NCBI RefSeq assembly: GCF_014332515.1
Contig: NZ_VFSD01000004.1
Coordinates: 62,001 to 126,000 of the forward strand
Source of the DNA: Pontibacter beigongshangensis
Lineage (GTDB): Bacteria > Bacteroidota > Bacteroidia > Cytophagales > Hymenobacteraceae
DNA: 64,000 nt
Direction: 5' to 3'
In this document: positions 10,075 through 56,815 of the stretch, one piece after another
Layout of the letters: each line of letters begins with the position of its first letter
Numbering within the stretch: position 1 is the stretch's first letter
Notes under the pieces: model-generated
The model's input: the letters and a program-made list of their open reading frames with translations, nothing else
The model's database searches: none
Told to the model about the DNA's origin: nothing
Position numbers and translations under genes: made by a program

Positions 10075-10320
10075 AGTCTTATGTGAATTAGTGGAAAAAT
10101 CTGCCAGGCGAAGGGCCAGCCCGGTGCAGCACCTCTCTCCTGCTGATCCACCAGTTCCTGCCCTGTAAGTCTATTTTGTTAATGCGATAACCTCCTTAAA
10201 AATAAATATGAATTTGAAAATCAACAACTTAGCTTCCTACATCTAAACAAAAAATAAAACTTATTTTTAGACAAAAACAATACCGATAATAGAAAAAGCG
10301 ACAAGAAATTTCTTGAAATT

Positions 10321-10417
10321 TCCAGTTTGATTTTGAAAAAGGTTTTATGCTAGTAAAGCAGCCAAAAAGCCTCTCTGCCACAATTTCTAATTTTTAATTT
10401 TTGATTTGAAAGGGCTA
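10321..10417 (-). repeat. R5/R3 repeat at the stop of the M48 gene
   Basis: Read on the minus strand it begins at the TAG stop of the M48 gene, continues through the AT-rich AAAAATTAGAAAT arm, and ends in a segment related to copies at 11472 and 49437 (shared AAAGC(A/T)GCCA core). The GCTTCGCC part is diverged here. Confidence 0.6.
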
Positions 10418-11308: not shown

Positions 11309-11471
11309 TTCCGGATTATTTATTTGAGTTCAGCTGCCTTCCCTAACGTGGCGACTCCTGCAGACTGTATAAATAATTAGCAAGTACTTTGCCAGTTTCT
11401 AAGACAAGCGTATTTGCAGAGGAAGATGGCTGGTAGAATGAAGGCTTAAGGAGCTGAATGTTTCCAATACT

Positions 11472-11560
11472 CCTCCAGTTTGATGTTCAGAATGGTTTAC
11501 TGTTTGTAAAGCTGCCAGAAAATATAGCTGCTAAAACTTCTAATTTGGTAAAGCATTAAG
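11472..11560 (-). repeat. R5/R3 repeat copy
   Basis: It contains AAAGCTGCCAGAAAA and then TTCTAATTTGGTAAAGC, aligning over about 85 bp with the copy at 49437-49528. It directly adjoins R1 copy e. Confidence 0.6.
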
Positions 11561-19503: not shown

Positions 19504-20787
19504 TTAAGAAACAGGCCGGCTCTGCGTAAAAGTAAGCAGCAAATGGTGTTGCTGGTCAGCGTACGAATAGGTGAGCTTTATCTGGTGCAGATCGCAGATC
19601 TTCTTGACCAGGGCAAGGCCAATACCCAGCGAGCCGGAAACCTGGCTACTGCTTATATAACGCCCTAGCAGTTCTTCAGGAGAGTTGTGTAAGGCGGCAC
19701 CGGTATTGATGATGCGCAACTGGCTTTTTGTTAAATGGATGGAAATGGTGCCCCCTTCGTGGTTATGACGGATGGCGTTTAGCAGCAGGTTCGACACCAG
19801 CACTTCTGCCAGGCCCCGGTTCATGACCCACCAAACGGGCTCCAGTTCTTCAGGCATCTCTATTCGCAGCCCCATCAGCTCTACCATTTCCTGCAACTGC
19901 TCCAGCTGTTCCTGAAGCAGCAGGTGCAACGGCACCTGTTCCTGCTCCTGAAATTCGCGGTTTTCGATTCGGGTAAGCAAAATAAGTGACCTGTTCAGGC
20001 GCGCCAGCCGGCTGACAGATGCAGCCATCTCCTCCAGCATGCGTGCCTGCGGTGGTGTCAGGTTGTCTGACTGCATGAAAAGCTCCAGCTTGTTGCTGAC
20101 AATGGCCAGAGGCGTCTGTATTTCGTGCGATGCGTTTTCGGTAAATTCCTTCAGGTTCAGGTAATCGCTGTATATTTTGTCGGTCATGGCCTGCAGCACG
20201 GTGTTCAGTTCCTGAAACTCGGTGGTACTGGAGTGCTTGAGCTGTAGCGGGCTGTAGCGTGTTAAGCTGTACTGCTTTATCATATGCAGCGTCTCATAAA
20301 AATGGCGCCAGGTAAACTTATTGATAAAATAGTTGACAAAGACCAGCCCGACCAGCAGCATCAGGAAAATCCAGCCCATGGCCATCATCGTGCTTTCGAA
20401 CAGGTCCTGGAAATCAGTTAGAGATTTCAGGATAGTGTACTCATAGGGCTTGTTGTCCTGAAAGGCCGTAAAGGTAAGCCGCCTGAAGGGGATATATTCT
20501 TCGTCGTAGCTACTGAAGATCAGCGTGTCGCCCAGTTCCTCCAGTTTCAGGCTGGAATGCTGCGCCTCCCTTACCAGAATGGCCTCCGAAATGCCGGAGG
20601 TTACGTTAGGCAGGCGATTGTGCTCCCGAATGTACTGGATGATGTTCTCCTTGTCGGTAAACAGCTGGTCGTCTACTTCGTCGTAAATCTCTGTTTGCAG
20701 GTGCTTGTAAAACAGCAAACTCCCCAACAGGAACACGACCACCGACACCAGCAGGTAATACAGGCTTGTTTGGGTTAAGATCCGCAT
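19504..20787 (-). CDS. Sensor histidine kinase
   Basis: The 427-residue product has TM helices at about 8-28 and 135-155 that bracket a periplasmic sensor domain of about 105 residues. A linker leads to a HisKA domain with the phospho-acceptor His221 in ENASHEIQTPLAIV. An HATPase_c domain follows, with the N box LVSNLLLNAIRHNH and G boxes around SLGIGLALVKKICDLH. The start codon shares one base with the stop of the response-regulator gene (TGATG), so translation is coupled. The Gln in HEIQTPL replaces the common Arg (HELRTPL), a variant frequent in Bacteroidota. The stimulus is unknown; the next gene encodes a PepSY/propeller lipoprotein. Confidence 0.95.
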   Translation of the reverse strand: MRILTQTSLYYLLVSVVVFLLGSLLFYKHLQTEIYDEVDDQLFTDKENIIQYIREHNRLPNVTSGISEAILVREAQHSSLKLEELGDTLIFSSYDEEYIPFRRLTFTAFQDNKPYEYTILKSLTDFQDLFESTMMAMGWIFLMLLVGLVFVNYFINKFTWRHFYETLHMIKQYSLTRYSPLQLKHSSTTEFQELNTVLQAMTDKIYSDYLNLKEFTENASHEIQTPLAIVSNKLELFMQSDNLTPPQARMLEEMAASVSRLARLNRSLILLTRIENREFQEQEQVPLHLLLQEQLEQLQEMVELMGLRIEMPEELEPVWWVMNRGLAEVLVSNLLLNAIRHNHEGGTISIHLTKSQLRIINTGAALHNSPEELLGRYISSSQVSGSLGIGLALVKKICDLHQIKLTYSYADQQHHLLLTFTQSRPVS

Positions 20788-21461
20788 CAGCAGCTGAATT
20801 TGTAGCCCAGCCCATACACCGTCTGAATGTAATCTTCTCCGCAGGAGTCGAGCAGTTTACGGCGCAGGTTCTTGATGTGCGTATAGATAAAGTCCAGGGA
20901 GTCCAGGCCATCCATGTGGTCGCCCCACAAATGTTCTGCAATAGAATCTTTGGTGAGCACCCGGTTGCGGTTAGAAAGAAAATATAGCAGCAGGAAATAC
21001 TCTTTTTTAGTTAGGGGCAGCTTTCTGTCATCAACCATCACTTCTGCCGAATCTGTAAATACCTCTAGCCGGCCGGCACGCACTGTTTTCCGGCCGTTGA
21101 AGTTACGGCGCCTGATAACGGATTTGAGCCGTGCGTTCAGTTCAGACAGGTGGAAGGGCTTGGTCAGGTAATCGTCTGCTCCCATCTCCAACCCTGTCAG
21201 CTTATCATCCAGGGCATTTTTTGCAGAGATTATGATTATCCCAGTCTCCGGATTATTCTCCTTCACCAGCTTTACCACCTCCAGCCCATTGCCGCCGGGT
21301 AAGGTAAGGTCCACAATCAGACATTCGTACGTGAAATCTGCCGCCTTTATCCTGGCTTCTCTTAAATCCGTGGCACTTTCACAGATGTAACCCTCCTGCT
21401 GTAAATAGGTCACTACAGATTCTCGCAATGCCTGCTCGTCTTCAACTACCAGAACTTTCAT
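20787..21461 (-). CDS. OmpR/PhoB-type response regulator
   Basis: The 224-residue product has a receiver domain (about 1-115) with acidic pair Glu7-Asp8, phospho-acceptor Asp51 (LIVDLTLPG) and the switch Lys in ISAKNALDDK. A winged-helix DNA-binding domain follows (about 130-224, LTKKEYFLLLYFLSNRNRVL ... YTHIKNLRRKL). It is the first gene of the operon and overlaps the kinase gene by one base. Targets are not visible; the neighbouring lipoprotein genes are natural candidates. Confidence 0.96.
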   Translation of the reverse strand: MKVLVVEDEQALRESVVTYLQQEGYICESATDLREARIKAADFTYECLIVDLTLPGGNGLEVVKLVKENNPETGIIIISAKNALDDKLTGLEMGADDYLTKPFHLSELNARLKSVIRRRNFNGRKTVRAGRLEVFTDSAEVMVDDRKLPLTKKEYFLLLYFLSNRNRVLTKDSIAEHLWGDHMDGLDSLDFIYTHIKNLRRKLLDSCGEDYIQTVYGLGYKFSC

Positions 21462-21540
21462 AAGCTAATTTTAGGTTGCGCGAAAATAATCCTGAATTCT
21501 GAAGCAATTCTGTGCACCGGGGCCGAATTAATCTGGCAAG

Positions 21541-21607
21541 TTTTATTACTGGCAGCTTTAAAGGCATCTGCTATTATTCTGAATTTTGAATTTGGCGAAG
21601 TACTAAG
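21541..21607 (-). repeat. R5/R3 repeat copy (diverged)
   Basis: It shows GGCAGCTTTAAAGGCATCTG and then GAATTTGGCGAAGTACTAAGG, i.e. in the sense of the family TTAGTACTTCGCCAAATTC. No gene ends here, so this may mark a lost gene or an independent insertion. Confidence 0.5.
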
Positions 21608-21759
21608 GCTCCATAAAGTTTAAATCGTGGGGTTTCCTGGAAATTTCTATATAGAAACATAATAGTCTGAAGACTTAAGCACATGTCTATGTCATAAGTG
21701 GCGCTGCGCATAACACATGCGCCAGTTTCGGGAAAGCCCACTACCGATTTTTTTATCCG

Positions 21760-21918
21760 GCACTAAGTACATGGAGGTAAAATCTGTCGTATACGGGCAG
21801 GGCCAGCAGGAGCAGAAGAGGTCTCCGAAGGGCTGTTTTGATTAGAATAATTCCGATAGACAGACTTCTTTCTCTTCTCAAACTGACCTGGCTATAGTGA
21901 TTGGCATGTACTTAGTGC
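21760..21918. mobile_element. MITE-like element: 14-bp terminal inverted repeats around R1
   Basis: GCACTAAGTACATG at 21760-21773 and CATGTACTTAGTGC at 21905-21918 are exact reverse complements. The 159-bp interval has R1 copy j at its centre and no coding capacity. No clear target-site duplication is seen in the flanks. A diverged relative lies at 56426-56549, and the right half is similar to the flank of R1 copy m at 29834. Confidence 0.55.
21804..21852 (-). repeat. R1 dispersed repeat, copy j
   Basis: CAGCAGGAGCAGAAGAGG, CTCCGAAGGG, then TTTTGATTAGAATAATT. It lies inside the inverted-repeat element. Confidence 0.8.
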
Positions 21919-22010
21919 TACCTAAAGCATTACATGTCGGTGTTGGCTTCAAAGCAGCTAGAGTTGCCGGTGAAAACAACTGCAAAAGGAAAAGCCGACA
22001 AAGAATTTAT

Positions 22011-22038
22011 TTTAAATTTTCAATTTGGCGAAGCACTA
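22011..22038 (-). repeat. R3 repeat at the 3' end of the topoisomerase IB gene
   Basis: On the minus strand it reads CTAGTGCTTCGCCAAATTGA. The last codons and the TGA stop of the topoisomerase gene lie inside this repeat, in a frame that skips its TAG. Confidence 0.65.
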
Positions 22039-23129
22039 GCCGCCTTCTTTTCGCGTGCCACCTTCTGCAGCATTTTGAGCACCAGTTCTTCCGTGCCAGA
22101 CAGGTTTTCTGTGGATGGCTTGCCGGCATCGTGCCGCCTGAGATACTGCATCAGCTTGTCTTCCCTGAACAGGTTCACCACTTCCGGATGAATGTAGTAC
22201 TTGGAACAAACCGTGGGCGTATTCCCCAGGCTTCTGGCCACCATCTTCACCGACTCCTTGATGCTTTTCTCCTTCCCAAGCTCCGGGTTCTCGTCCAGCA
22301 CCTGCTCCAGGCACTCCACCATGCGCACGGTGCCGCCCCAGGTCCGGAAATCCTTGGCCGTGAAATCATGTGCTGTGGCCTCCCGCAGGTAAGCGTTCAC
22401 ATCGCCCGACTCCAGCGTTTGCCGCTGTCCGTCTTCGTCGTAATACTGGAAAAGGTCGTAGCCCGGAATATCTTTACACTTTTTCACCAGCCGTGCCAGC
22501 CGCCGGTCCTTTAGGTCTACCTCATGCTCCACCCCTTTCTTGCCCCTGAACGAAAACTTCAGCTGGCTGCCATTGATCTGCACATGCCGGTCGCGGAGCG
22601 TAGTAAGGCCATACGATTTGTTTGATTTGGCGTAGGCACGGTTTCCGATTCTTATCAGGGCATTGTCGAGGAGCGAGAGCACCACCGCCGTTACGCGCCG
22701 CTTGTCCAGTTTTCGGGAGTTTATGTCTGTCTCTATCTGTTGCCGCAGCCTGGGGAGCGATTTTCCGAACTGGATCATGCGCCCGAATTTAGTAAGGCTG
22801 CGGGCCTTCTGCCATTCGGGGTGATACATGTATTGCTTGCGCCCTTTGTCGTCGCGGCCGGTTGCCTGCAGGTGCCCCTTGGAGTGAGGCGATATCCAGA
22901 CATCCGTCCAGGCGGGCGGAATAACGAGTTTGCTTATCCGCTCCAGCGTCTTCTCATCCGAAACACGTTCGCCTTTGGCATCTTCAAAATAAAATCCTTT
23001 GCCTGATTTCCGGCGGGTAATGCCGGGTTTTTCGTCGGAAGTGTATCGTAGGCCCGCCCATGCGGCAGATTTTGCCGGGTCGGTGTGTAATTCGTGCAGT
23101 TCGTTCTTCTTGGCCATCTCCTGAGGCAT
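22020..23129 (-). CDS. DNA topoisomerase IB (viral/poxvirus-like bacterial type)
   Basis: The 369-residue product has the bacterial TopIB layout. An N-terminal beta domain (about 25-105) includes GRKQYMYHPEW. The catalytic domain follows, with Arg residues in RIGNRAYA and TWGGTVRM, and the nucleophile Tyr312 in NTPTVCSKYYIHP. The enzyme relaxes supercoils through a 3'-phosphotyrosyl link. ATG codons at residues 1 and 5 are both possible starts; MAKKN at residue 5 may be the true one. The last five residues (SASPN) and the stop are encoded by an R3 repeat, so the C-terminus was probably altered by it. It stands alone. Confidence 0.95.
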   Translation of the reverse strand: MPQEMAKKNELHELHTDPAKSAAWAGLRYTSDEKPGITRRKSGKGFYFEDAKGERVSDEKTLERISKLVIPPAWTDVWISPHSKGHLQATGRDDKGRKQYMYHPEWQKARSLTKFGRMIQFGKSLPRLRQQIETDINSRKLDKRRVTAVVLSLLDNALIRIGNRAYAKSNKSYGLTTLRDRHVQINGSQLKFSFRGKKGVEHEVDLKDRRLARLVKKCKDIPGYDLFQYYDEDGQRQTLESGDVNAYLREATAHDFTAKDFRTWGGTVRMVECLEQVLDENPELGKEKSIKESVKMVARSLGNTPTVCSKYYIHPEVVNLFREDKLMQYLRRHDAGKPSTENLSGTEELVLKMLQKVAREKKAASASPN

Positions 23130-23230
23130 TATCTATCTTACCTCCTGCACTACATACCTTATTTTATTGCAAAAGTTTCCGGTGGGTTTCCGGGAGGCGC
23201 TGCTGCCAGCTGCATTTTGGCAAACATCCG

Positions 23231-23239
23231 TATCTTTGC
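23231..23239 (+). promoter_or_regulatory. Possible -7 box upstream of the small membrane protein
   Basis: TATCTTTGC fits the Bacteroidota -7 consensus TAnnTTTG and lies 24 bp before the ATG at 23263. I see no matching -33 box. Confidence 0.35.
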
Positions 23240-23262
23240 CCCTGCCAAAACTATTTTACAAC

Positions 23263-23676
23263 ATGCACCACCACCTCTCCTATCTGTATGCTTTTTTTGG
23301 GCTATTCCTGATTGGCTGTGGCCTACTGTCGGTTTTGCTTTTAGGCTGGAAGGCGAAAACAGCCTTGGCTTCGGGTAGCATGTCTGGCTTTATCGCTTTA
23401 ACGGCCGGCCACTTCCTGAACCTCGGCCAGGCCTGGGCACTCTACCTGGGCACAACAGAAGCCGCCATCCTGACCGGAGTTTTTGCCTGGCGGGCGAGTG
23501 CGGCTTTTTTAACCCTCACGGAACTGCTGCAAAAGCAGGATAAGGCGGCCATCCGTCAAAAAAGCGTTGCCTTCCTGATCATTGCGACCATGTTAGTGAT
23601 GGCCCTGCTGGTGCTGGCCTTGTCTGCCACGTTCTTTAAAGATGCCCTTGCTGCTACAGGCCTGGGGGAAGTCTAA
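23263..23676 (+). CDS. Small polytopic membrane protein, unknown
   Basis: With the ATG at 23263 the product is 137 residues and starts MHHHLSYLYAFFGLFLIG, straight into a TM helix. An upstream start at 23167 would add a non-membrane stretch that overlaps the likely promoter. About four hydrophobic helices are visible (5-25, 35-60, 65-85 and 108-130), and a Gln/Lys-rich loop lies near 95-105. I recognise no family. It is divergent from topoisomerase IB across a short spacer and is followed 30 bp later by R1. Confidence 0.65.
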   Translation: MHHHLSYLYAFFGLFLIGCGLLSVLLLGWKAKTALASGSMSGFIALTAGHFLNLGQAWALYLGTTEAAILTGVFAWRASAAFLTLTELLQKQDKAAIRQKSVAFLIIATMLVMALLVLALSATFFKDALAATGLGEV

Positions 23677-23705
23677 AGGCACAGACTCCTTTTCTGCATA
23701 GCAGA

Positions 23706-23754
23706 AGCAGCAGGAGCAGCAGAACCTCCGGAGGGGCTTTTTGATTAGAATAAT
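23706..23754 (-). repeat. R1 dispersed repeat, copy k
   Basis: GCAGCAGGAGCAGCAG, the perfect palindrome CCTCCGGAGG, then TTTTTGATTAGAATAATC. The CAG end faces the stop of the gene just upstream. The remaining spacer to 24069 shows no gene. Confidence 0.85.
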
Positions 23755-24069
23755 CGGGTTGCCGCATGCCATAAAGACGGGGCCACCGCTAAAAACCCGG
23801 CCTTCCCGGGTAGGGTAAGACTGACGAGATACTGCACCTCCATAGCCCCTGAAAAACGTCAGGACCTTTCTTCTTTAACCATAACCATCATTTTTTAAGA
23901 AAACTTAGAACCATAGTGGCCGCTCCGGGTGGCCTAACACAAAGCCTTTTTGTCCGTAAAGGCAGATACATATCAAAAATTAACTTTAGCGGCAACCGGA
24001 AATCCTCCTGGTTACCTGGAGCAATGCCGGACGCTAACCTTTTATATCTTTAAATTTAAGTATCTCTAA

Positions 24070-24894
24070 ATGAACAAATTTTTCTTTACCCCTTCCGGCT
24101 TCGTTTGTTTTCTGGCCTTATTTTTCCTGGCCAGCTGTTCCGACAACGAGGGCGTTATTTTCTCTACCCAGGACGATGTAAACCTGGGAGCTCAGGTAGC
24201 GGCAGAGGTCGACTCCACTTACCGGGCCGAGGGAAAACTGCTCGAGCGCAACAGCGCCAATGCCAAAGCGTACCAGCACCTGGACCGCATCGTGGACCGC
24301 GTCCTCAACTCCGGGCAGGTAAAGTACCGCACCGAGTTTCCGTGGACAGTAAAAATAATCCGTGACGACGAGAACCTTAACGCTTTTGCGGCACCCGGAG
24401 GCTATATTTATGTATTTACCGGCATTATCCGCTACCTCGAAGACGAAGATCACTTTGCTGGCGTGCTGGCCCATGAGATTGCCCATGCCGACAAACGGCA
24501 CAGCGTAAGGCAGCTACAACGCGACTACGGCATTTCGCTGTTACTGTCGGTGGCGCTTGGCAACAATGCCGGTGCCTTGCAGCAGATAGCGGCGCAGCTG
24601 GCCGGCACGCTGGCCGGGCTCAGGTTTAGCCGCGAAGCAGAAACTGAGGCCGACGACACCTCTGTCATTTACCTGGGCGGCACCAACCACTATGCCTGCG
24701 ATGGCGCAGCCGGCTTCTTTATGAAGCTGAACGCAGAGGCGCAGCAAGGCAACCCGCCTGAGTTTCTCAGCACCCACCCAAACCCCGAAAACAGAGTGGA
24801 GAACATACAGCAGCGGGCACGGGAAAACGGCTGCAGCACCACCTCCGCCACCGATTCCGACTTCAACGAACTGAAAAAAAGCCTTAACCTATAA
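24070..24894 (+). CDS. M48 family metalloprotease lipoprotein
   Basis: The 274-residue product has a lipobox ending at Cys23 (FLASC) and an M48 catalytic domain with HEIAH at 135-139. The third zinc ligand is expected in SREAETEADD (about 189-198), and the C-terminal STHPNPENRV motif is typical of the LoiP/BepA-like group. The first part of the mature chain (DDVNLGAQVAAEVDS) also fits that group. These are periplasmic membrane-bound proteases or chaperones for outer-membrane proteins. The gene is followed 47 bp later by the App1-type gene on the same strand, so they are probably co-transcribed through a small hairpin at 24906-24925. Confidence 0.92.
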   Translation: MNKFFFTPSGFVCFLALFFLASCSDNEGVIFSTQDDVNLGAQVAAEVDSTYRAEGKLLERNSANAKAYQHLDRIVDRVLNSGQVKYRTEFPWTVKIIRDDENLNAFAAPGGYIYVFTGIIRYLEDEDHFAGVLAHEIAHADKRHSVRQLQRDYGISLLLSVALGNNAGALQQIAAQLAGTLAGLRFSREAETEADDTSVIYLGGTNHYACDGAAGFFMKLNAEAQQGNPPEFLSTHPNPENRVENIQQRARENGCSTTSATDSDFNELKKSLNL

Positions 24895-24941
24895 CCAGAA
24901 CCGGCAGCCTGCTTTCTGGCAGGCTCGCCACAACCCGGGCT

Positions 24942-26093
24942 ATGAAAAAGATAAAGAAAATTGCCAAGAAGACCGTACTGAAAGCGGAGGAGAAATTTGA
25001 TGTGCTTGCCTTTGAGCTGCGGCGAAAGTTAAATATGTTTGGCCCCCTCCAGATTGTACCGTACCGCAGCTATGGCACCCCCACCCGCTTGTATGTAAAA
25101 GGCCGGGTACTGGTAGACAAGGGCGTTACGCAATCCGACATACAGGACACGACCTGGCAAAACCTCCTCAACATGTACCGCCGTTTTCATAGCGATGAAA
25201 TCCCGAATGCCAGGGTGCAGCTGGAACTGCAGGGCCAGCAGTACGAAGTTACCACCGATGTAGAGGGTTATTTTGTGCTGAACATGGAGCCCAAAACTCC
25301 CTTGCAGCTGGAGGACATCTGGCACCCGATAGAATTAAAGCTGGTGGATTCGCCTTTGGAAATGGAGGAAACTGTTACCGCCACCGCCCAGGTGCTGGTG
25401 CCTCCGCCAGATGCAGAGTATGGTATTATCAGCGACATAGACGACACGATTGTATACACAGGCGCGACAAGCATGCTGAAGACCGGCAGAAACGTGCTGC
25501 TCAACAATGCGCACCGCCGCATCCCGTTCCATGGAGTGTCTTCGTTTTACAAATCGCTGCAGCTGGGGCGCAACGGCAAGCTCAACAACCCCTTTTTCTA
25601 CGTGTCCAGCAGCCCCTGGAACACCTATGACCTGCTGTACCACTTTCTGGAGCTGAACAATATACCAACCGGCCCGCTCCTGCTGCGCGACTTCGGCATA
25701 GACGAATCTAAGTTCCTGAGCTCCGACCACATGAGCCACAAGTACAAAGAAATAGAGAACCTGCTCATCACCTATCCGGAGCTCGAGTTTATTTTAATTG
25801 GCGACAGCGGCCAGAAAGATGCCGAAATTTATAGCGAGGTGGTTCGCAACCATCCGGGCAGAATCCTGGCTATTTATATCCGTGATGTGAACGTGGAGAA
25901 GCACACACGGAAAGTGATATCTATTGCAGATGAGCTCAAGAAAGCAGGAAACGTAGAGATGGTAATTGTTAAAGAAACACTAGAGGCAGCAGAGCACGCC
26001 GCCCAGCATGGTTTTATATTTACGGAGGAACTCCCCGAGATCGCAAAAGAAACCGCTTTGGACGATTCGGGTGATAATGAGGCAGAGGAATAA
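24942..26093 (+). CDS. App1-type phosphatidate phosphatase family protein (DUF2183)
   Basis: The 383-residue product has an N-terminal beta-sandwich-like half (about 35-155) and a HAD-like catalytic half starting at SDIDDTIVYTG (Asp165, Asp167 and Thr169 of DxDxT). Later motifs are FFYVSSSPWNTYD, DHMSHKYKEI and ILIGDSGQKDAEIY. This matches the App1/DUF2183 family; yeast App1 dephosphorylates phosphatidic acid. There is no signal peptide, so it should be cytoplasmic or membrane-peripheral. The C-terminal 40 residues are acidic. The bacterial substrate is not established. Confidence 0.9.
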   Translation: MKKIKKIAKKTVLKAEEKFDVLAFELRRKLNMFGPLQIVPYRSYGTPTRLYVKGRVLVDKGVTQSDIQDTTWQNLLNMYRRFHSDEIPNARVQLELQGQQYEVTTDVEGYFVLNMEPKTPLQLEDIWHPIELKLVDSPLEMEETVTATAQVLVPPPDAEYGIISDIDDTIVYTGATSMLKTGRNVLLNNAHRRIPFHGVSSFYKSLQLGRNGKLNNPFFYVSSSPWNTYDLLYHFLELNNIPTGPLLLRDFGIDESKFLSSDHMSHKYKEIENLLITYPELEFILIGDSGQKDAEIYSEVVRNHPGRILAIYIRDVNVEKHTRKVISIADELKKAGNVEMVIVKETLEAAEHAAQHGFIFTEELPEIAKETALDDSGDNEAEE

Positions 26094-26576
26094 GGATTAG
26101 AACGTGGGTAATCAAAGCAGAGGCCGCTCCTCTTACAGCTTCTTTAGCTGCAAAAAACATCCCGGAATCTGAAGTTGTATTTCTCCACTCCGACAGGCAA
26201 GAAGAAGTGATATGCCCTGAAACGTATGCACTTTTTTCTTAAATTCTGCCGGTTTCGATTCCGGAAAGCGAAGACGTTGGGCATCGTATACGAACAATGA
26301 CAGAACTTATCGGAATTCAGCATTTGATTTGTTCTTATTAAGAAAAAATCTTGAGTCTTTTGTCCTGCGTCTTGTGTCCTGTAGCAGATGGCAATACAAG
26401 TTCGATTTCCGGGAAGTTAAATCGCTTTATATAGCGCTCATCATTTTTAATTAACAGGATTTCAGACAAGCTGTTATTTTTTGTGGTCAATTAGTACCTT
26501 TAAATTTTAGAGCAGCTTTATGGCCGGTACTTTAACCGCCGAAGCCCATAAAGTTGTGACACCCTATTGACGTGCT
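26094..26576. other. Spacer with one R2 copy
   Basis: This 483-bp spacer holds R2 copy 2 and the presumed promoter of the next gene. No gene is seen. Confidence 0.5.
26301..26424 (+). repeat. R2 dispersed repeat, copy 2
   Basis: It reads CAGAACTTATCGGAATTCAG, GATTTGTTCT, GTCCTGCGTCTTGTGTCCTG, GTAGCAGATGGCAATACAAG and ATTTCCGGGAAGTTAAAT. It is nearly identical to the copy at 61361 in the second half. Confidence 0.75.
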
Positions 26577-28103
26577 ATGGGCCGCCCGCTACTGATCCGA
26601 TTCCTGCTCCTGTTTTACCTGGTCCTGTACCTGCTGTTCCCTACGCAAAACTCCTCTTTGGATGCCTACTATTATGGCGCCTGCATCCGGTATGGCAATG
26701 ATTTGTTTCTGCCCCACCACCTGCTCTACAATGCTACCTGCTACCTGCTGCTGCTGCCGCTAAAGCTCCTGGCCCCGCAATTAGACGAACTCACCGTGCT
26801 AAAGATGCTGAACGCCCTTTTCGCGGCGGGCAGCCTTTGGGTGCTGGCAAAACTGCTGCAGCGTCTTCAGTTGCCGGCAGGCACACAGATTGGCTGGATA
26901 ATGCTGGCGGGCTCCTCTTTTGGCGTATGGCGGTTTGCCACAGAGAACGAGGTCTACCTGCTGCCAATCCTGCTTTCTCTGGCAGGCAGCTATGGCTGGG
27001 TGAAGTATGTGCAGCAGCCAAAAAACGCCTACCTGGTTTGGTCTGGTTTGTTCGCAGCCCTAGCCTGCCTGTACCACCAGCTGCATGTGTTCTGGTGGCT
27101 GGGTTTACTGCTTGGCCTTGTTTGGCAATTCAGGAGTTTTAAGGTAGTGCTCCTGTTCGGGCTCCCTGCCCTGCTGGTGCCACTGGTATATGTCCTGGTG
27201 CTGGTTTGGTACCTGGGGCAGGCGCTGCAGGTACAGCGCCTGCTGGCCTTCGTGTTGCACGACTTTTATGCAGGCAGTGCCGGAACCTCCATCGGGGTGC
27301 TCAATTTCGTACTCTCGGGTGTAAGCTTTGTGCGCACTTTTGTGCAGGTACACGGACTGATGCTGTACCTGCCCGGCAGAAGCTGGTGGTGGCTGCTCCC
27401 GGCCTTGGTAACGGTTGGCCTGCTGGTTTGGGCAGTGCTCCGGCAGCCGCTGCAGAAAAGAAAAACAGCCAGTTCCGAAAGCCTGCTGGTAGGGAAGGTA
27501 CATTTGCTGATCCTGCTGCTGCACCTGGGGTTCGCCTGGTTTGCGGTGGGCAATGTGGAGTTTATGGTGATGGTTCCTTTTCTGTTACCGCTGCTGCCCT
27601 GGCTTCCATTTTCCGGCCTGTTCCTGCAAAAAACCGGGGCAGCCTTCCTTATCTGGAATTTCTGGTATGGCATATTTCCTGCCTGGCACTTCCAGCTGTC
27701 TCCCAGCAGCCACCTGGTCGAGATTGTTCACCGGCACCCGGAGAGCTTATTTGTTCTGAACGAGGCCTTGCTCGTCCGTAATGCCTATTATTACCGCTAC
27801 GGCGTAAAGGATGTGCCCCGGGTGCAGAAGTCTCCGTCGCAGTTAGCAGCCAGACCAGCCGGCACAGAAGAACTGGCCCGTACCCTGGAGGAGCGCCTGC
27901 AGGCAGAGCCGGCAAACGGGGTGCTGACCGATTGCATCAGGAAAGCAAACGTCATAAACCGGGCTTCTATCGTATCAGAAGACCGGGATAAAGCCTTTTT
28001 CCGGCCATACCATGCCACGCCTGTCGACTCTTTTCGCACCATTTACGGAACACATTACCTGCACCAGTTAAAGCCGCTCCCGCATGGCCAGGCAGGGCAA
28101 TAA
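26577..28103 (+). CDS. Polytopic membrane protein, GT-C glycosyltransferase-like
   Basis: The 508-residue product has about ten TM helices over residues 5-385, then a soluble C-terminal region. An early loop contains NSSLDAYYYG with an acidic residue, and a later loop has RFATENEVYLLP; both resemble the first and second periplasmic loops of GT-C (PMT/ArnT-like) enzymes that use polyprenyl-phosphate sugars. No classical DD/DE pair is certain. I place it as GT-C-like on topology only. It precedes the ceramidase-like lipoprotein gene on the same strand, with an R1 copy 12 bp after its stop. Confidence 0.75.
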   Translation: MGRPLLIRFLLLFYLVLYLLFPTQNSSLDAYYYGACIRYGNDLFLPHHLLYNATCYLLLLPLKLLAPQLDELTVLKMLNALFAAGSLWVLAKLLQRLQLPAGTQIGWIMLAGSSFGVWRFATENEVYLLPILLSLAGSYGWVKYVQQPKNAYLVWSGLFAALACLYHQLHVFWWLGLLLGLVWQFRSFKVVLLFGLPALLVPLVYVLVLVWYLGQALQVQRLLAFVLHDFYAGSAGTSIGVLNFVLSGVSFVRTFVQVHGLMLYLPGRSWWWLLPALVTVGLLVWAVLRQPLQKRKTASSESLLVGKVHLLILLLHLGFAWFAVGNVEFMVMVPFLLPLLPWLPFSGLFLQKTGAAFLIWNFWYGIFPAWHFQLSPSSHLVEIVHRHPESLFVLNEALLVRNAYYYRYGVKDVPRVQKSPSQLAARPAGTEELARTLEERLQAEPANGVLTDCIRKANVINRASIVSEDRDKAFFRPYHATPVDSFRTIYGTHYLHQLKPLPHGQAGQ

Positions 28104-28114
28104 ACACAGCTCCT

Positions 28115-28159
28115 GAGCAGCAGTAGCGCCTCTGGAGGGGGCTTTTCATTAGAATAATT
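28115..28159 (-). repeat. R1 dispersed repeat, copy l
   Basis: GAGCAGCAGTAGCG, CCTCTGGAGGGG, then TTTTCATTAGAATAATTT. It begins 12 bp after the stop of the membrane protein gene, CAG end first. Confidence 0.8.
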
Positions 28160-28249
28160 TGATAGATGATGGTTGGTTGGTTGTTAAAATCTTAGGGGGC
28201 TGTGGAATAGTTGTTAAGAGTCAGACCTTCGCTCCTATATAGTTTTTTA

Positions 28250-28275
28250 TTTTTTAATTTTGAATTTGTCGAAGC
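28250..28275 (-). repeat. R3 repeat upstream of the ceramidase-like gene
   Basis: On the minus strand it reads GCTTCGACAAATTCAAAATT. It sits just upstream of the chosen start at 28293, so an upstream TTG start at 28260 would be translated from repeat DNA. Confidence 0.5.
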
Positions 28276-28292
28276 CACCACCTTGCGCGCCA

Positions 28293-29666
28293 ATGCCAAA
28301 CATCAGATGTCCGAAAACTGTGCTGCTGCTCTTGTTTGCTTCTATGCTGCTGCCCTCTTGTGTCATTCAGCAGATCGACCACACGCCATATGAGCAAACG
28401 GATTATTTCCGCCAGACGCTAGAGCAGTTGGAAGCACATGCTCCAGTGGTGACCTCCACCGACACCCTGCAGGTAGGCTGGGCCAAAGTGAACATCACCC
28501 CACCCCTCCACACGCCGCTGGCAGGCTATGGCAAAAGGCGTGGCATGAAGTACACTTCCGTGCACGACTCAGCCTATGTGCGCACCTTCTCGTTTGGCAA
28601 CGGGAGCAGCCAGGCCTATTTCGTAGCACTCGATATGCTGATTACGCCCATGGCCGTGTCGGCAGCCCTGGAAAAAGAGTATGCGCGGCTTGGGCTGAAA
28701 CCAGAGCAGGTATATCTTTCGGCCACCCATACGCACACCAGTTTTGGAGGATGGGGCAAAAAGCTGATGGGAAGGATTATGGCTGGTAGGTACAAGGAGC
28801 AGGTCGTGCAGGCTACCGTGCAGCATATTGTGGCCAGCATGGCGCTGGCGCAGGCCGGGCAGCTTCCGGCACGTATCGGCTACGGCCAGGTGCATGCCGC
28901 AGAACTGGTCGGCAACCGGCTAACCGGAGATGCCACAGCCCTGGATACGACCCTGCGGTATCTTAAGTTTGAGCAAAAAGGTGGTGGCACGGCCCTGCTC
29001 TGCAGCTTCTCTGCCCACCCTACCATCCTGCCCTCCAGGCAACCCATTCTCTCGCGCGATTACCCGGGCGCTTTGGTTGACTCTCTGGAGTCGGTAGTGG
29101 ATTTTGCGGCTTTCTCGGCAGGGGCAGTTGCCAGCCACCGGCCCCACACCCTGCATGGCGACAGCTTTGAGAGCACCGCCGCGCTGGGCAACAGCTTAGC
29201 CCGTAAGATTCTGAACAGCCTGCCAAATACCGGCACTTCTTACCATTCCAGGCTTGGCTATGCCAGCGTGCCACTACAACTACCGGAGCCACAGTGGCGC
29301 TCCGGCGACAGGCATCGTTTTGGCCCCGGCCTCTTCCATACTTTCTTTGGCAACTACCCCGCCTACCTGAGCAGCCTGCAGTTGGGTAACGTGGTGCTGC
29401 TGGGGGTGCCGGCAGATTATTCAGGAGAGTTTCTGAAAACACTCACAGCCCAGGCCAAAAGCCAGGGGCAGGAGCTGTTGGTTACCGGGTTTAATGCGGG
29501 TTATATCGGCTATGTAACGCCCGATGAGCATTATGGGCTGAAGAATTACGAAACCCGGGCCATGAACTTCTACGGCCCACAAAGCGGCAGTTACCTGACA
29601 GCCATGCTGCTCCGGCTCCTGCAACGCCACCAACCTGAAGCCGCTGATAATCCGGCCAACCCTTAG
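28293..29666 (+). CDS. Neutral/alkaline ceramidase-like lipoprotein
   Basis: I chose ATG 28293 (MPNIRCPKTVLLLLFASMLLPSC); a TTG at 28260 lies inside an R3 repeat. The 457-residue product has a lipobox ending at Cys23 (MLLPSC). Its domain matches the N-terminal part of neutral/alkaline non-lysosomal ceramidases: VGWAKVNITPP, then LAGYGKRRG, then the SATHTHTSFGG zinc-motif region. The C-terminal domain of full-length ceramidases is missing, as is common for Bacteroidota homologues. It may hydrolyse an amide-linked lipid at the membrane surface. Its TAG stop is the first triplet of an R3 repeat. Confidence 0.88.
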   Translation: MPNIRCPKTVLLLLFASMLLPSCVIQQIDHTPYEQTDYFRQTLEQLEAHAPVVTSTDTLQVGWAKVNITPPLHTPLAGYGKRRGMKYTSVHDSAYVRTFSFGNGSSQAYFVALDMLITPMAVSAALEKEYARLGLKPEQVYLSATHTHTSFGGWGKKLMGRIMAGRYKEQVVQATVQHIVASMALAQAGQLPARIGYGQVHAAELVGNRLTGDATALDTTLRYLKFEQKGGGTALLCSFSAHPTILPSRQPILSRDYPGALVDSLESVVDFAAFSAGAVASHRPHTLHGDSFESTAALGNSLARKILNSLPNTGTSYHSRLGYASVPLQLPEPQWRSGDRHRFGPGLFHTFFGNYPAYLSSLQLGNVVLLGVPADYSGEFLKTLTAQAKSQGQELLVTGFNAGYIGYVTPDEHYGLKNYETRAMNFYGPQSGSYLTAMLLRLLQRHQPEAADNPANP

Positions 29667-29693
29667 TGCTTCGCCAAACTCAAAATTAGAGAT
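29663..29693 (+). repeat. R3 repeat supplying the stop of the ceramidase-like gene
   Basis: TTAGTGCTTCGCCAAACTC is followed by AAAATTAGAGATTC. Its TAG (29664-29666) is the gene's stop codon. Confidence 0.65.
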
Positions 29694-29778
29694 TCTGATA
29701 GCTTTCAAGCCGTAAATCTTTCAAGAAATCCATTTAGGGGAGCAAAAGATATTTAAGCGACATCTGTGTGGGCCGGGT

Positions 29779-29833
29779 CAGCAGCATCAGAAGCAGAGAA
29801 GGGCTCTGGAGGGCTGTTTTGATTAGAATAATT
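29779..29833 (-). repeat. R1 dispersed repeat, copy m
   Basis: CAGCAGCATCAGAAGCAG, CTCTGGAGGG, then TTTTGATTAGAATAATTCC. The next 60-80 bp (GACAGACTTCTTTCGCCTC...) resemble the right half of the element at 21760-21918, so this is an extended copy. Confidence 0.8.
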
Positions 29834-30320
29834 CCGAATGACAGACTTCTTTCGCCTCTTAAACCGACCCGATAGATTTTACTTGGGTGTACGTAGTTGT
29901 CCGGTCCGGTTTTTCCAGGAGCTACACGCCTGCCTTGCTGATTAAAAAATCAGAAAGACGATGGGTTCCTAGAGCCAGTCTGCCACTGTTCCGGCACAGC
30001 CGTCTCCTCCGCTACCCCCTTTCGTCTCTCAGCAGCACAACGGAAGCCTCTTATCAAAGCGCCTATTGCACGTACTGCTCTACAGGTTTCGACCGATCAA
30101 AAATAATTCAGGACTGTTTTGGCCTCAGTATTATATTTAAATCTGTTATATTTCAAGTTCAATAACCAGGCTATTTCCAAAGGTTGCTGCTGAATAAGTC
30201 GGGCTTGCCGGAAAGCACTAGTACCTAACAGGAGCTAACGGATAAAAAAGATGTTACGAGGAGCAGCTGCCTCATCTATTTTTATTAAGCAGCCCATAGA
30301 ACAGCGCGAAAAGATATTAA
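29834..30320. other. Spacer upstream of the second GT-C-like gene
   Basis: After the R1-extended segment, no credible gene is seen. A plus-strand frame at 29887 of 92 codons has no family resemblance and is rejected. Confidence 0.4.
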
Positions 30321-31445
30321 ATGAATAAGGCAACTATCTGGTATTACAGTGCGGTTGGGGTCTCTGCCTTCGTTTACCTGGCCTTGGGGTATTTTATTTC
30401 CTGGCAGGCATATGGGCAGCAACTGATGCTGAGCGCAATCATTTTTGTAGCCTACGTTGCTATAGCGCAGCACAAAACAAATGTCCGGACAGGCATAGGG
30501 GCCGCAATCGGGTTCCGGCTCCTGCTTCTGTTTTCGACCCTCTCTCCTGCTGCCAGTTCTGCCGGCTTTTGGGGGAGCCTCTCCTTCGCAGAAAACAGCA
30601 CGATGCTCCTGCGCATACTCTGGCTTTTATGCGAGGCAGGCACCATGGTGCTCCTGTTACGGCTGATCCGGAAAATGGGGCTTCCGGACAAAAATGTGCT
30701 GCTATATGCACTCAATCCGCTGGTGATACTGGAGCTGACCTTGCACCTACATATAGTTGCCTGGCCCATCTTGTTTTTGACACTTGCGCTTTATTTCCTT
30801 TACTACCACCGGCACGTATTTGCTGGCGCTGCCTTTGGTGTAGGGGTCAGCGTACTGAGTTTGCCACTTCTTTTTATTCCGCTGGTATTCCGCCGGACCG
30901 GCCCTGGCCCTTTTTTGGTATTTCTGGGAGCTTTGGCGGCAGTCCTGCTGCTGCTGTATTATGCCGGCAGTGTGCAGGCAGACATGCAGGAGCTTTTGCT
31001 GCCGGATAAAAGGCTGGATCAAACGTTTAATGCGAGCCTTTACCCCGTATTCAGTTCGCTTATGCCTGGTGCAGGCAAGGTGCTGCCAGGCTATGTTCTT
31101 CCTGTTGTACTGGTCGCCATTTCGGTTGCGCTGGCTGTATTCAGAAAACAGAACTCTGTGCGCAGGCTGGCAGGATACATGGCCACAGTGCTTACCGTGT
31201 ACCTGCTGCTGAGCCCGGCTGTGTACCCCTGGCAGCTCGCCCCCCTGCTGGCCCTGACCTGCTTAAGTCAATTCAGGTTTGCCATTGTCTGGTCTGGCCT
31301 GCTATTTATTGCCTTAAACCCTGGCTTCCGGCAGCATGAAACTGCCTTGTTGCTGCTGGAGTACGCCATTGTTTTTTTGTGGCTGATCGTAGAAATCTAT
31401 TTTTACCGGCAAAGACGCAAGCAGCTTAATATCCAAAAGCAGTAG
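30321..31445 (+). CDS. Polytopic membrane protein, GT87/DUF2029-like
   Basis: The 374-residue product has about ten TM helices. The segment LLYALNPLVILELTLHLHIV (about 128-147) resembles the x-x-LNPLVI-x-E-x-x-x-N-x-H motif of polyprenol-phosphate-mannose-dependent mannosyltransferases (GT87) and related proteins. The catalytic acidic loop after the first helix is not obvious, and the chain is shorter than typical family members (about 400-450). It ends with a basic QRRKQ tail. It follows the ceramidase-like gene by 650 bp. I take the GT-C call as likely but unproven. Confidence 0.72.
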   Translation: MNKATIWYYSAVGVSAFVYLALGYFISWQAYGQQLMLSAIIFVAYVAIAQHKTNVRTGIGAAIGFRLLLLFSTLSPAASSAGFWGSLSFAENSTMLLRILWLLCEAGTMVLLLRLIRKMGLPDKNVLLYALNPLVILELTLHLHIVAWPILFLTLALYFLYYHRHVFAGAAFGVGVSVLSLPLLFIPLVFRRTGPGPFLVFLGALAAVLLLLYYAGSVQADMQELLLPDKRLDQTFNASLYPVFSSLMPGAGKVLPGYVLPVVLVAISVALAVFRKQNSVRRLAGYMATVLTVYLLLSPAVYPWQLAPLLALTCLSQFRFAIVWSGLLFIALNPGFRQHETALLLLEYAIVFLWLIVEIYFYRQRRKQLNIQKQ

Positions 31446-31873
31446 GTTAAAAGCGCCAGAAAATTGCAAATTTTTATTTATTGCTCCTCAGGAAACCGGA
31501 AACTCGGCTTTTTCCCTTCTTTTTTATTCCAAGGTTGTTGAAGGATCTTTAGTGAGAACCTCAGTTCTTAAACCCTCTCCTGTGGAGCATGCTTTTTTTT
31601 CAGCATGTTTTGCATACTTTCTTTAAAGGTTGCGCATCTTATAACTCGGTTTATGAAAGGCACAGCAGTTCAACTTCGTCCGAAAATGCTGCAATAATAG
31701 CTAAAAGGCACTTTCTGCTATAACCAGAGAGGCAGCGGCTACTCTATTCTGCTAAAGCGAATACACCAATATAATGGAAAAGATGCTTAAGAGATTTAAT
31801 AGCCGTATAACTATATTTATACAAAATTAAATAATTGAACCAGCCCCTACTGTGTAAACTTAAAGCTCTTGAA
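31446..31873. other. Spacer upstream of the copper ATPase
   Basis: About 428 bp, AT-rich towards the ATPase gene. No gene or R1-R3 copy is seen. An imperfect GCATGC...GCATG hairpin near 31587-31610 is the only structure noted. It presumably holds a metal-responsive promoter, but I cannot point to the operator. Confidence 0.4.
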
Positions 31874-34462
31874 ATGATACATACTTATAAAATAAAAGGC
31901 ATGACGTGCGATGGCTGCCGGAATAAAGTTGAGGGTGCGCTTAACTCCATAGAGGGAGTAGAGGCAACGGTGACCTTATACCCCATGGAGGCAATTATTG
32001 CCATGGAAAAACATGTGTCCACCGAAGAATTGCAGAAAGCCTTATTTACTGCCGGAAATTATACGATTGAAATGTGCCCTTCTCCGGCGCACCAGGCTCC
32101 TGTCCATCAGCATCAGCATCAGCACCATAATACCCATCAGCAGCAGCCACATGAGCAGCAGCATCCCCCAACAGCGGCCAAAAATCCTGTGGCCAAAAGT
32201 GGTGGCAAGTATTATTGCCCTATGCACTGCGAGGGCGATAAACTCTATGCTAAACCGGGGAACTGTCCGGTGTGCGGCATGAACCTGGAAAAGATTCCTG
32301 AGCTTCCACAGGCAGCCTCCCAATACACCTGCCCCATGCATCCGGAAATCGTGCAGGATGGACCCGGCCCCTGCCCTATCTGCGGCATGGATCTAGTGCC
32401 CATAACCCCAACCGAGGAGGAGGACAGCACCTATAAAGGATTGCTGAAAAAATTTAAAGTGGCCGTTCTTTTCACAGTTCCCATATTTATAATTTCAATG
32501 GGCGAGATGATACCCGGCAATCCAATTGGCCGGATTCTGCCCCCCTCGGTTAGTAACTGGCTGCAGTTCCTGTTTTCACTGCCAGTTATTTTCTATGCTA
32601 CCTGGATGTTCTTCGAGCGGGCCTGGGTGTCCATCCGTACCCTTAATTTAAATATGTTTACCCTGATAGGCATTGGCGCAGGAGCGGCCTTTGTATTCAG
32701 TATCGTAGCCCTCTTGTTTCCTGAAGTTTTTCCGGCCCAGTTCAAAGGACCGGACGGGTACGTGCATCTTTATTTTGAAGCGGCAACCGTGATTCTCACG
32801 CTGGTGCTATTGGGACAACTATTAGAAGCAAGAGCCCACAGCCAGACCAGCGGTGCCGTAAAAGCGCTTTTAAAATTATCCCCTACAGATGCCGTTCTGC
32901 TCGTGAACGGCGAAGATAAAATAATCTCGATAAATGACATAAAAAAGGGCGACTTGCTGCGGGTGAAGCCAGGAGAAAAAATCCCGGTAGATGGAAAGAT
33001 AACAGAAGGAAGCAGCAGCGTGGATGAGGCCATGATTACCGGTGAGCCTATTCCGGTAAATAAAAAAGAAGGCGACAAAGTCAGCTCCGGCACCATAAAT
33101 GGTACCCGCTCTTTTATCATGGAGGCTGAGAAAGTAGGCGCTGACACCCTGCTCTCGCAGATAATACAGATGGTTAACAATGCCAGCCGCTCCCGGGCAC
33201 CCATCCAGAACCTGGCAGACAGGATATCCAAATATTTTGTTCCTGTTGTGATCGTTGTCGCAGTAATTACTTTTACTGTTTGGGCTGCCTGGGGCCCTGA
33301 GCCCGCTTATGTTTTTGCCTTTGTGAACGCCCTGGCAGTATTGATTATCGCCTGCCCGTGTGCTCTCGGGCTGGCTACCCCTATGTCGGTAATGGTAGGC
33401 GTGGGCAAGGGTGCCGAAAGCGGGGTGCTCATAAAAAATGCCGAAGCGCTGGAGAAGATGGATAAAATTGATGTGCTGATTACTGATAAAACGGGTACGA
33501 TTACGGAGGGCAGGCCATCGGTAGAAAAAGTAGTTGGCTTGAATGATAACGACAACACAGCAGTACTAAGATTCAGCGCTTCGGTTAATCAGCACAGCGA
33601 ACACCCCTTGGCGGAAGCAGTTGTAAAGGCCGCTAAAGAAAAACGCATGGCGCTCGGTACCTTAGAGAATTTTTCGTCTGTGACCGGCATGGGCGTGACT
33701 GGCCTGGTGGATGGACAAAAGGTTGCCCTCGGCAACATAAAGCTAATGGAGCAGGAGCAGGCAACGGTTTCGCCGCAAATGGAGGCGGAGGTCGTCCAAG
33801 AGCAACTGGCGGGTAAAACAATTTCTTATTTGGCAGTAGACGGAGAAGTGAAGGGCTATGTGGCGATAAGTGATGCCATAAAAGCCACCAGTAAAAATGC
33901 CATTCAGTATTTAATGGATAAGGGTGTGGAAGTTATCATGCTCACCGGCGACAATGGCAACACGGCGAAAGCCGTAGCCGATGAATTGCACTTGAGCAGC
34001 TTTAAAGCAGAGGTATTGCCGGCCGATAAACTAGCCGAAATAAAACAACTGCAGGCACAGGGAAAAATAGTGGCGATGGCAGGGGATGGCATTAACGATG
34101 CCCCTGCTCTTGCCCAGGCAGACATTGGAATTGCCATGGGAACCGGCACCGACGTAGCCATAGAAAGTGCCACCATTACCTTGCTAAGAGGCGATCTGCA
34201 GGGCATCGTAAAAGCGAAAGAACTAAGTCATGCGGTTATGCGCAATATCAGGCAAAACCTCTTTTTTGCCTTTATCTATAATGTACTGGGCATACCCATT
34301 GCAGCGGGGGTCTTATATCCTGCCTTCGGCCTGCTGCTCTCACCCATGATTGCGGCAGCCGCCATGAGCTTTAGCTCCGTATCGGTAATCGTGAACTCTT
34401 TGCGCCTCCGAAACTTAACCCTAACACAATCCCGAACCAGCCTGCATCAAAGCAAAATTTAG
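31874..34462 (+). CDS. copA: Copper-type P1B ATPase with three N-terminal metal-binding modules
   Basis: I chose ATG 31874 ([15 protein letters not shown]); an upstream start at 31835 would add 13 residues with no family support. The 862-residue product has an HMA domain with Cys12-x-x-Cys15, and a His/Gln-rich linker (about 75-100). Two heavy-metal-binding repeats of the YCPMH...PGxCPxCGM type follow, from Cys115 and Cys153. The transport core has TGEP, the membrane metal motif CPC (494-496), phosphorylation site Asp538 in [15 protein letters not shown] and GDGINDAP. This is a Cu(I)-exporting ATPase in most relatives. No metal regulator is adjacent. The stop is embedded in an R5/R3 repeat. 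Confidence 0.95.
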
Positions 34463-34514
34463 AAAAGATGGCAGAAAGGCTTTCTGGCAGCTTTACAAAT
34501 ATCAAACCTTCCTG
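34449..34514 (+). repeat. R5/R3 repeat at the stop of the copper ATPase gene
   Basis: It reads AAAGCAAAATTTAG, a self-complementary GCAGAAAGGCTTTCTG, then GGCAGCTTTACAAATATC. The TAG in AAATTTAGAAAA is the gene's stop codon (34460-34462). Confidence 0.6.
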
Positions 34515-34655
34515 AAAAATTAAGCAGGAAGCGTGCCCCTTTAAAAATAGCATTGCCTGTATACGGGTAGCAATGTCCTCTCCAAATGCAGGTTTTTCAC
34601 CTGCCGGAACTTTCCAGAATAATAGAAAAAGAATGTTTGATAGTATAGCCAAATA

Positions 34656-34775
34656 TAGAACATATCAGGGTTCAACACAGGATTTGTTCTCAGTATGAAA
34701 AGATCTTGCGTCTTAAGTCCTGCGTCTTTAGTCCTGTACCAGATGGCCATACAAGTTCTATTTCCGGGATTTAAG
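34656..34775 (+). repeat. R2 dispersed repeat, copy 3
   Basis: It contains GATTTGTTCTCAGTATGAAA, TCTTGCGTCTTAAGTCCTGC and AGATGGCCATACAAGTTC, ending TTTCCGGGATTTAAG. It lies in the 346-bp spacer between the convergent ATPase and DUF2461 genes. Confidence 0.75.
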
Positions 34776-34808
34776 CCGGCGTCTGTAACAGGTATGGGCG
34801 TATAGGTA

Positions 34809-35489: not shown

Positions 35490-35771
35490 ATTTTGTTTGG
35501 TTTCCTGAGTATCTACTGCTGTAATTAAAATTTGGATATCACTTTTCCAGAAGAAGTTCTTCAGACACCGCCGGAACTTGCAGCCTGCCAAACCACTCTC
35601 CTTCTACTAATCCATCATCTATAGACTGGGACCTCACTTTTCGGAACCAAAAATGGCTCCACCTTGAGACAAACAAAGCACGACACACGAATCACAACAT
35701 TTTATTCTTTGTTTAAAGGGAGAAATAAATTCCGATAAGTGATTTTGCTGTCTGTAAGCATGTAAAAAGGT

Positions 35772-35820
35772 AATTATTCTAATGAAAACAGCCCTCCGCA
35801 GTCGCTGCAGCTGCTGCTGC
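35772..35820 (+). repeat. R1 dispersed repeat, copy n
   Basis: TAATTATTCTAATGAAAA, CCCTCCGCAG, then CTGCAGCTGCTGCTGC. The CTG end is 15 bp from the YdcF stop codon. A perfect 14-bp palindrome (TATTGTTAACAATA, 35831-35844) follows and overlaps that stop. Confidence 0.8.
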
Positions 35821-35835
35821 ACATTGTTTTTATTG

Positions 35836-36603: not shown

Positions 36604-36810
36604 GCAACGTGGTTCAGAGTAGGCGCCATGGAGGAGTTACCATTACCTCCTCCCTTTATACCTGAAGCCGGGAAGCCTGCCCGGAGGTGTAACCGTAAAG
36701 CCCTTGACCGTGGCAAGTTAGCCAGCTACGCTTATAAAAACCAATAATTATTATGAGCAGCTGAAGGGGCAGGCTATCATTTAGTTGTCATATTAGGCCA
36801 GGCCGGGGCC

Positions 36811-56366: not shown

Positions 56367-56425
56367 GGCTTCACCCCATCCCTTCGATTCTGCCACCATT
56401 ACCAGACTGGTACCGGCGGCCCGTC

Positions 56426-56549
56426 TAAGTACATGCAAGTAAATTTTGTCGAATAGAAGCGTAATTATTCCAATGAAATAGGCCCTCCAGAGTCTTTTAA
56501 CCCTTATCCCCTGGTCCTTTATCTGTCAGAAAATAGTTGAATGTACTTA
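56426..56549. mobile_element. Diverged R1-bearing inverted-repeat element
   Basis: TAAGTACAT (56426-56434) and ATGTACTTA (56541-56549) are exact complements and match the core of the 14-bp ends of the element at 21760-21918. R1 copy u lies inside. TCTGTC near one end is also shared. It looks like an older relative of that element. Confidence 0.4.
56462..56495 (+). repeat. R1 dispersed repeat, copy u (short)
   Basis: TAATTATTCCAATGAAATAG, then GGCCCTCCAGAG. The CTG tract is missing. Confidence 0.6.
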
Positions 56550-56815
56550 ATAAAAGTATCAAATAGTACCTGTCCCTTTCCATTTTTAAACCACCATTGC
56601 CAATTCATTATATTAACACCTTAGCAGCTTCCTACTTTATGTAAGGTGGCCGAAAACAGAACAAACAGACGTATTTTCATCTATTTAAAAAAAACAGCGC
56701 ACTATTTCACTGTCATGTGATTGGCGTAAAAGAAAATTCCTATATTTAAATCAAATTCTAAAAACTGTTTAAACATCGCTAATTCACACATCTTTACACA
56801 ACACAAAACCGACAA

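Follow-up and report, generated by a model that had tools for sequence, protein, structure and literature searches.

A probable IS630-type MITE in Pontibacter beigongshangensis with the R1 motif as its likely cargo

Background

The window analysed here is a 64,000-nt stretch of one contig of the Pontibacter beigongshangensis genome (G000, a draft of 5.75 Mb in 75 contigs). The motif R1 occurs at 22 places in the window, e.g., at 23716-23754, 35772-35807, and 60420-60459. One R1 copy lies within a 159-bp interval bounded by inverted repeats. Is this interval a mobile element, and if so, is R1 the core with which the element multiplied, or a passenger that has a history of its own? An earlier sequence-only reading of the same DNA favored the former: R1 would have spread as the core of a MITE-like carrier, and most copies would now be reduced to that core. 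Here we examine the borders of the interval, its relatives within and outside the genome, the orthologous loci of Pontibacter qinzhouensis, and the distribution of R1 inside and outside the element.

Results

Borders of the focal element

The interval separates the minus-strand genes 20787-21461 and 22020-23129. From 21897, a plus-strand ORF of 205 aa enters the latter gene in antisense; it looks spurious. The interval can be treated as non-coding, with R1 inside it, as was proposed (Table 1). The 14-bp terminal inverted repeats are indeed perfect, at 21760-21773 on the plus strand and at 21905-21918 on the minus strand, and these are the only exact matches of the 14-bp end in the window. With up to three mismatches, the window contains six matches versus 4.33 expected; therefore the window alone is no proof of a family.

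The ends of the focal element were aligned alongside 33 other ends. The sequence CTAAGTACA is conserved at each letter in 32-34 of 34 ends (17 elements from seven genomes, which are chosen elements found with a pattern like CTAAGTACA), and GCAC falls beyond the conserved boundary in most copies. From such comparison, the “perfect 14 bp” is best read as three parts: GCAC would be half of the target, TA a target duplication, and AGTACATG the true end. Only the latter 8 bp would then be the perfect transposon end in the focal copy, and its border would be GCAC-TA-AGTACATG...CATGTACT-TA-GTGC. This border is read from IS630-type ends, so the element would span 21766-21912, and a site without it is expected to read GCACTAGTGC. 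The predicted empty site includes CTAG, and IS630 reportedly prefers TA within CTAG, to go by the title of one paper. The focal copy matches the element profile, which was built from 18 copies including this one, at 21761-21916 (E 3.4e-47).

Direct repeats were sought at the borders of 32 two-ended elements, and none was detected besides TA (best z 2.5 among 539 combinations). The target duplication is read as TA, inside what at first passed for the end. Of the 32 elements, 18 have an unaltered TA at either border and 16 an exact CTA/TAG, both counts being obtained with a search pattern that itself held CTA. The available text of PMC2170065 describes IS630 elements as inserting at TA and duplicating it.

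Table 1. Features of the focal element and of two related copies in the window
Feature	Position	Strand	Basis
MITE, class A, 147 bp without TA duplications	21766..21912	+ (R1 orientation taken as +)	profile match and end alignment
TA, read as left copy of target duplication	21764..21765	.	C-TA-AG boundary compared with IS630-type ends
TA, read as right copy of target duplication	21913..21914	.	comparison with IS630-type ends
GCAC, left half of putative palindromic target GCAC-TA-GTGC	21760..21763	.	sequence
GTGC, right half of putative target	21915..21918	.	sequence
R1 core inside MITE	21812..21853	+	profile match, E 3.1e-15
MITE, class B (copy u), C-TA / TA-A borders	56425..56550	.	end mismatches 0 and 5; profile match 56549-56424
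R1 in copy u	56463-56497	minus	R1 profile match
Degraded class A MITE (copy m)	29751..29897	+	profile match, E 1.9e-36, profile positions 12-163
R1 in copy m	29793-29834		inside degraded class A MITE			

The element family within the genome

A 201-base query matched at least 52 pieces of the genome (best 40 of 699 candidates). The end pattern CTAAGTACATGCAAGTAAA, with up to three mismatches, has 47 matches genome-wide versus none for the reversed control. In a profile search of the fetched DNA, the copies fall into a class A of about 160 bp and a class B of about 126 bp. A carrier of this kind had been expected to recur in the genome with both of its ends, and it does: we recovered 21 two-ended copies here, as well as 11 in P. 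qinzhouensis (12 rows, one of which repeats another). The features seen are those of a MITE, i.e., a short, non-coding sequence with inverted terminal repeats and many copies.

Two relatives in the window had been pointed out before. The one around copy u of R1 is a member of the family, of the shorter class B and 126 bp long rather than the 124 bp claimed. The flank of copy m was said to match one half of the element; the match is real and exceeds that half, and the copy is a degraded class A element with a worn left end. At eleven loci with unpaired ends no transposase was recognized by eye. At L181:699-1589 (contig C74 of this genome), an ORF that looks by eye like an IS3-type transposase adjoins two MITE copies.

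Several other repeats lie close to the element. At locus L024, on contig C11 of this genome, an IS630-like element of about 1.2 kb (L024:1579-2800) with other ends, GTGCTGCTCCAATT and AATTTGGAGAAGCAC, splits a class A element, whose sequence resumes beyond it. The inserted element has TA on both sides and contains an IS630-type transposase ORF that scores over the cut-off (129.2 versus 100). On visual inspection, the ends of this insertion look like the D6/D12 repeat found in the window. The D6/D12 repeat may be a MITE of this IS630-like element, and such kinship may explain why GCAC or GTGC frequently abuts class A ends. Repeats of the D6/D11/D12 family, with AATTTGGCGAAGCAC-type ends, are found in the window at 10317-10406, 11470-11559, and 49436-49525; ends of this family also lie near 21588-21605 and 22020-22038 and often abut class A ends. 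TA follows four of six distinct ends checked. Two class A copies are bordered on their right by some 100 bp (window 21917-22038 and L187) that look similar by eye (GTGCYACCTAA...GCAGCTAGAGTTGCCGGTGAAAAC...) and appear to be a further repeat adjoining the MITE. A 134-bp repeat family, D3, occurs at 26300-26433, 34655-34788, and 61359-61492, and the stretch around the first of these copies has several matches in P. qinzhouensis.

Relatives in other genomes and the transposase family

We searched 204 genomes of the family for the ends with up to two mismatches. There are 30 matches in this genome, 17 in P. qinzhouensis GY10130 (G199), two in G049, which belongs to another genus, and one in each of eight others; the control gave six matches in all. 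Single end matches in other genomes were taken as background, as were weak element matches in G003, G004, G012, and G014 (E 0.004-0.008). Exact matches were seen in viral contigs (5 and 3 stretches), and the plasmids searched contain no match.

The two copies with these ends in G049 are without R1 and are 82% alike over 129 bp. One of them includes ten letters of R1 (GATTAGAATA), but 105 of 300 shuffles do as well as its best match to R1, and therefore the copy was counted as R1-free. Copies of 115-116 bp with the same ends and without R1 are present in G268 and G280. R1-free elements with these ends were thus found in three genomes outside the genus (six elements tested). A G049 copy used as a query against the 204 family genomes did not retrieve this genome among the best four candidates per genome.

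A degenerate end pattern was run on 390 genomes of the order and matched in 15. G477 has one inverted end pair, spaced 1,120 bp, and G397 has two, spaced 1,120 and 1,136 bp. A DDE_3 ORF and, in another frame, an HTH ORF lie inside all three, so the transposase in both genomes is split across two ORFs. In one G397 copy, the sole one tested with NCBIfam, the transposase is assigned to IS630: the DDE ORF scores 108.3 versus a cut-off of 100, and the HTH ORF is below the IS630 cut-off (84.6). An end pair of 1,134 bp in G268 has no ORF of 100 aa inside. Ends of about 26 bp are common to the MITE and to 1,120-1,136-bp elements with an IS630 transposase in two other genomes of the order. A transposase with matching ends, for which a search had been suggested, is found in G397 and G477 but not, by the end-pair search, in this genome, where no two of the 47 end matches (up to three mismatches, 75-contig draft) form a pair at IS length.

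Literature searches on Pontibacter with IS630, on P. qinzhouensis, and on Hymenobacter with MITEs found no paper, subscription journals being thinly covered; broader literature listings had no Pontibacter paper among the matches listed.

Presence and absence in Pontibacter qinzhouensis

Locus pairs of the two species came from chance overlap of fetched loci and from a joined-flank query. The query included 14 pieces, of which 11 matched and three had no match; one of the 11 is an IS-like ORF and was left out. Among the 16 resulting locus pairs, ten have anchors on both sides and six on one side. No element end with up to four mismatches was found in the six one-anchor loci of P. qinzhouensis. 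A strict count over 26 two-anchor gaps gives nine gaps with the element here, and P. qinzhouensis has the element at 0 of these nine. A tenth gap (L010/L260 versus L161) is occupied in both species, by elements that differ in class and in the orientation of R1; the copy of this genome has a worn end and falls outside the strict count. A lone end-like match with five mismatches is present in the P. qinzhouensis gap L240.

Comparison of related strains for an empty site had been suggested; the comparison made here is with a sister species. The element is missing from all nine gaps, but the DNA around the elements has diverged in the five gaps that were aligned, so the empty sites are not base-exact. 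At the focal site, the two flanking genes are on different contigs in P. qinzhouensis, and hence there is no ortholog to compare.

R1 inside and outside the element

R1 is present in all 32 two-ended copies of the two species. A text search left two class D rows unmarked; R1 was confirmed by score in one of them, with which the second row agrees in its R1 letters. The R1 of L184 (class B) is weak, differs in seven of 30 letters, and was missed by the profile. Since the queries that yielded many of the loci contained R1 themselves, we recounted from the end pattern alone: R1 (up to 10 mismatches of 30) lies within 135 nt inward at 41 of 47 ends, and in 56 of 1,000 pieces drawn at random from the window. 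As judged by eye, the R1 module in class A and class C elements is that of the species in which they reside, unlike the module in class B.

R1 is also abundant in its own right. With up to three mismatches, its pattern matches 1,116 times in this genome but not at all in a sample of 40 congeners that excludes P. qinzhouensis. At the stringency applied, the R1 form of this genome has no match in a genome collection that may leave out this genome or close kin, and the P. qinzhouensis form occurs there in 44 stretches, all of them P. qinzhouensis. At least 189 distinct R1 copies of another dialect were found in the part of the P. qinzhouensis genome that was examined. The module upstream of R1 is GCAGCAGGAGCAG here and mostly TACCCTTGGCA in P. 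qinzhouensis, where the GCAGCAGGAGCAG type is in the minority.

According to rough gene models, 14 of the 19 single R1 copies in the window follow a co-oriented gene, and nine of 19 are within 50 bp of the end of that gene. A terminator scan of 21400-37400 gave 29 sites versus 21.0 ± 5.2 in shuffles and flagged two R1 copies (28128 and 29802); a terminator role of R1 is therefore unproven.

In 26 orthologous gaps, a non-random sample taken in the window and around element loci, single R1 is present in both species in 11 cases, only here in four, only in P. qinzhouensis in three, and in neither species in eight (Fisher p 0.045). All 11 shared gaps agree between the species in at least one orientation, including all seven gaps where each species has one copy. 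These orthologous copies sit at the same gene ends without transposon ends. Single R1 copies match the element profile only at about positions 44-102. Therefore single R1 copies do not look like worn-down elements, and R1 is most simply regarded as cargo of the MITE.

Discussion

We consider it highly probable (about 0.9) that the focal element is a MITE of the IS630/Tc1-mariner family, that R1 is its cargo, and that single R1 copies are separate from it rather than its worn-down remains. The “MITE-like carrier” of the sequence-only reading thus stands: the element has IS630-type ends and a putative TA boundary, transposase elements with the same ends exist elsewhere, and the element is missing from orthologous gaps of the sister species. 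An IS630-type transposase acting in trans would bind the terminal repeats of about 26 bp, excise the element, and insert it into a CTAG-like site, where the central TA would be duplicated. Judging by the distributions, the MITE may have captured R1 before the two species separated. The local R1 dialect in both class A and class C is not explained by one ancient capture. A tentative and rather doubtful suggestion is that R1 is a species-dialect motif near gene 3′ ends rather than a transposon and that the cargo is renewed with the motif of the host. A MITE that carries R1 of the local dialect would resemble a normal gene end on landing, and its cargo would therefore be useful to it.

The second half of the earlier proposal is not supported. 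If R1 had multiplied as the element core, single copies would be elements that lost their ends. The presence of R1 in every two-ended copy of two species would agree with such a history, as would, by eye, the species-specific dialect of class A and class C copies. However, over 1,100 R1 matches stand against 47 ends, single R1 occupies 11 of 26 orthologous gaps in both species without element ends and with a common orientation, the resemblance of single copies to the element stops at the limits of the central profile segment, and elements with the same ends but without R1 exist in three genomes outside the genus. We regard this history as very unlikely; the MITE fails to explain how R1 became so common. 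Inverted ends could also form the stem of a structured RNA or regulatory hairpin, and the single sequence does outfold its shuffles (z -3.78 as RNA and -2.34 as DNA). Against this, the consensus of 16 class A copies has 15 pairs with one compensatory change and a covariation term of -0.09, Rfam models give no match to 21500-22200 even at E values as high as 1, and the R1 palindrome shows no pair excess in either species, which makes a structured RNA highly improbable. It is extremely improbable that the ends and R1 constitute a system of the REP/REPIN kind whose mover is a RAYT, i.e., a Y1 transposase. The genome has six Y1_Tnp genes, and R1 is abundant and intergenic, as such a system would have it, but R1 near the six Y1_Tnp loci (L060-L065 of G000) is not above its general density, and the ends match IS630 elements instead. 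No Y1 gene bounded by these ends was seen at the six loci.

What was a puzzling inverted repeat can now be described as a mobile element, for which both the probable transposase family and the sequence of the empty site can be named. Two histories are separated: that of the MITE, gained or lost since the species split, and that of R1, older and far more abundant near gene ends. From the MITE it is evident that a transposon can take R1 along as cargo, and its insertions are sites where the effect of R1 can be tested. An IS630-type MITE is itself a known kind of element; the R1 passenger is the interesting part.

Three known systems can be compared on the basis of the available text of the respective sources. 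The SPRITE repeats of Streptococcus pneumoniae are described as terminator-like and as clustering with RUP (PMC10969869). An abundant intergenic repeat is found together with an IS630-type MITE in both cases. R1, in contrast, is inside the MITE in every two-ended copy, and the terminator-like nature of SPRITE has no proven counterpart in it. The closest precedent is RUP of S. pneumoniae, a 107-bp MITE attributed to IS630-Spn1, for which, according to PMC2229807, no functional motif is reported. As far as RUP is described there, it shares with our element the short intergenic form, IS630-family-like ends, and, by our reading of the borders, insertion at TA. Unlike the RUP host, which has the matching IS, P. 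beigongshangensis has a MITE whose matching IS was found only in other genera; moreover, the copies here are about 126 and 160 bp long rather than 107 bp and have R1 in the middle. The Correia, or NEMIS, elements of Neisseria are TA-ended MITEs of about 105-107 and 155 bp, and the long form carries an IHF site (PMC2229807). Two sizes, an internal motif in a MITE, and, by our reading of the borders, TA ends are common to the Neisseria elements, as outlined there, and to ours. The difference is that our elements have as internal motif R1, an abundant repeat of the genome itself, and that both size classes carry it.
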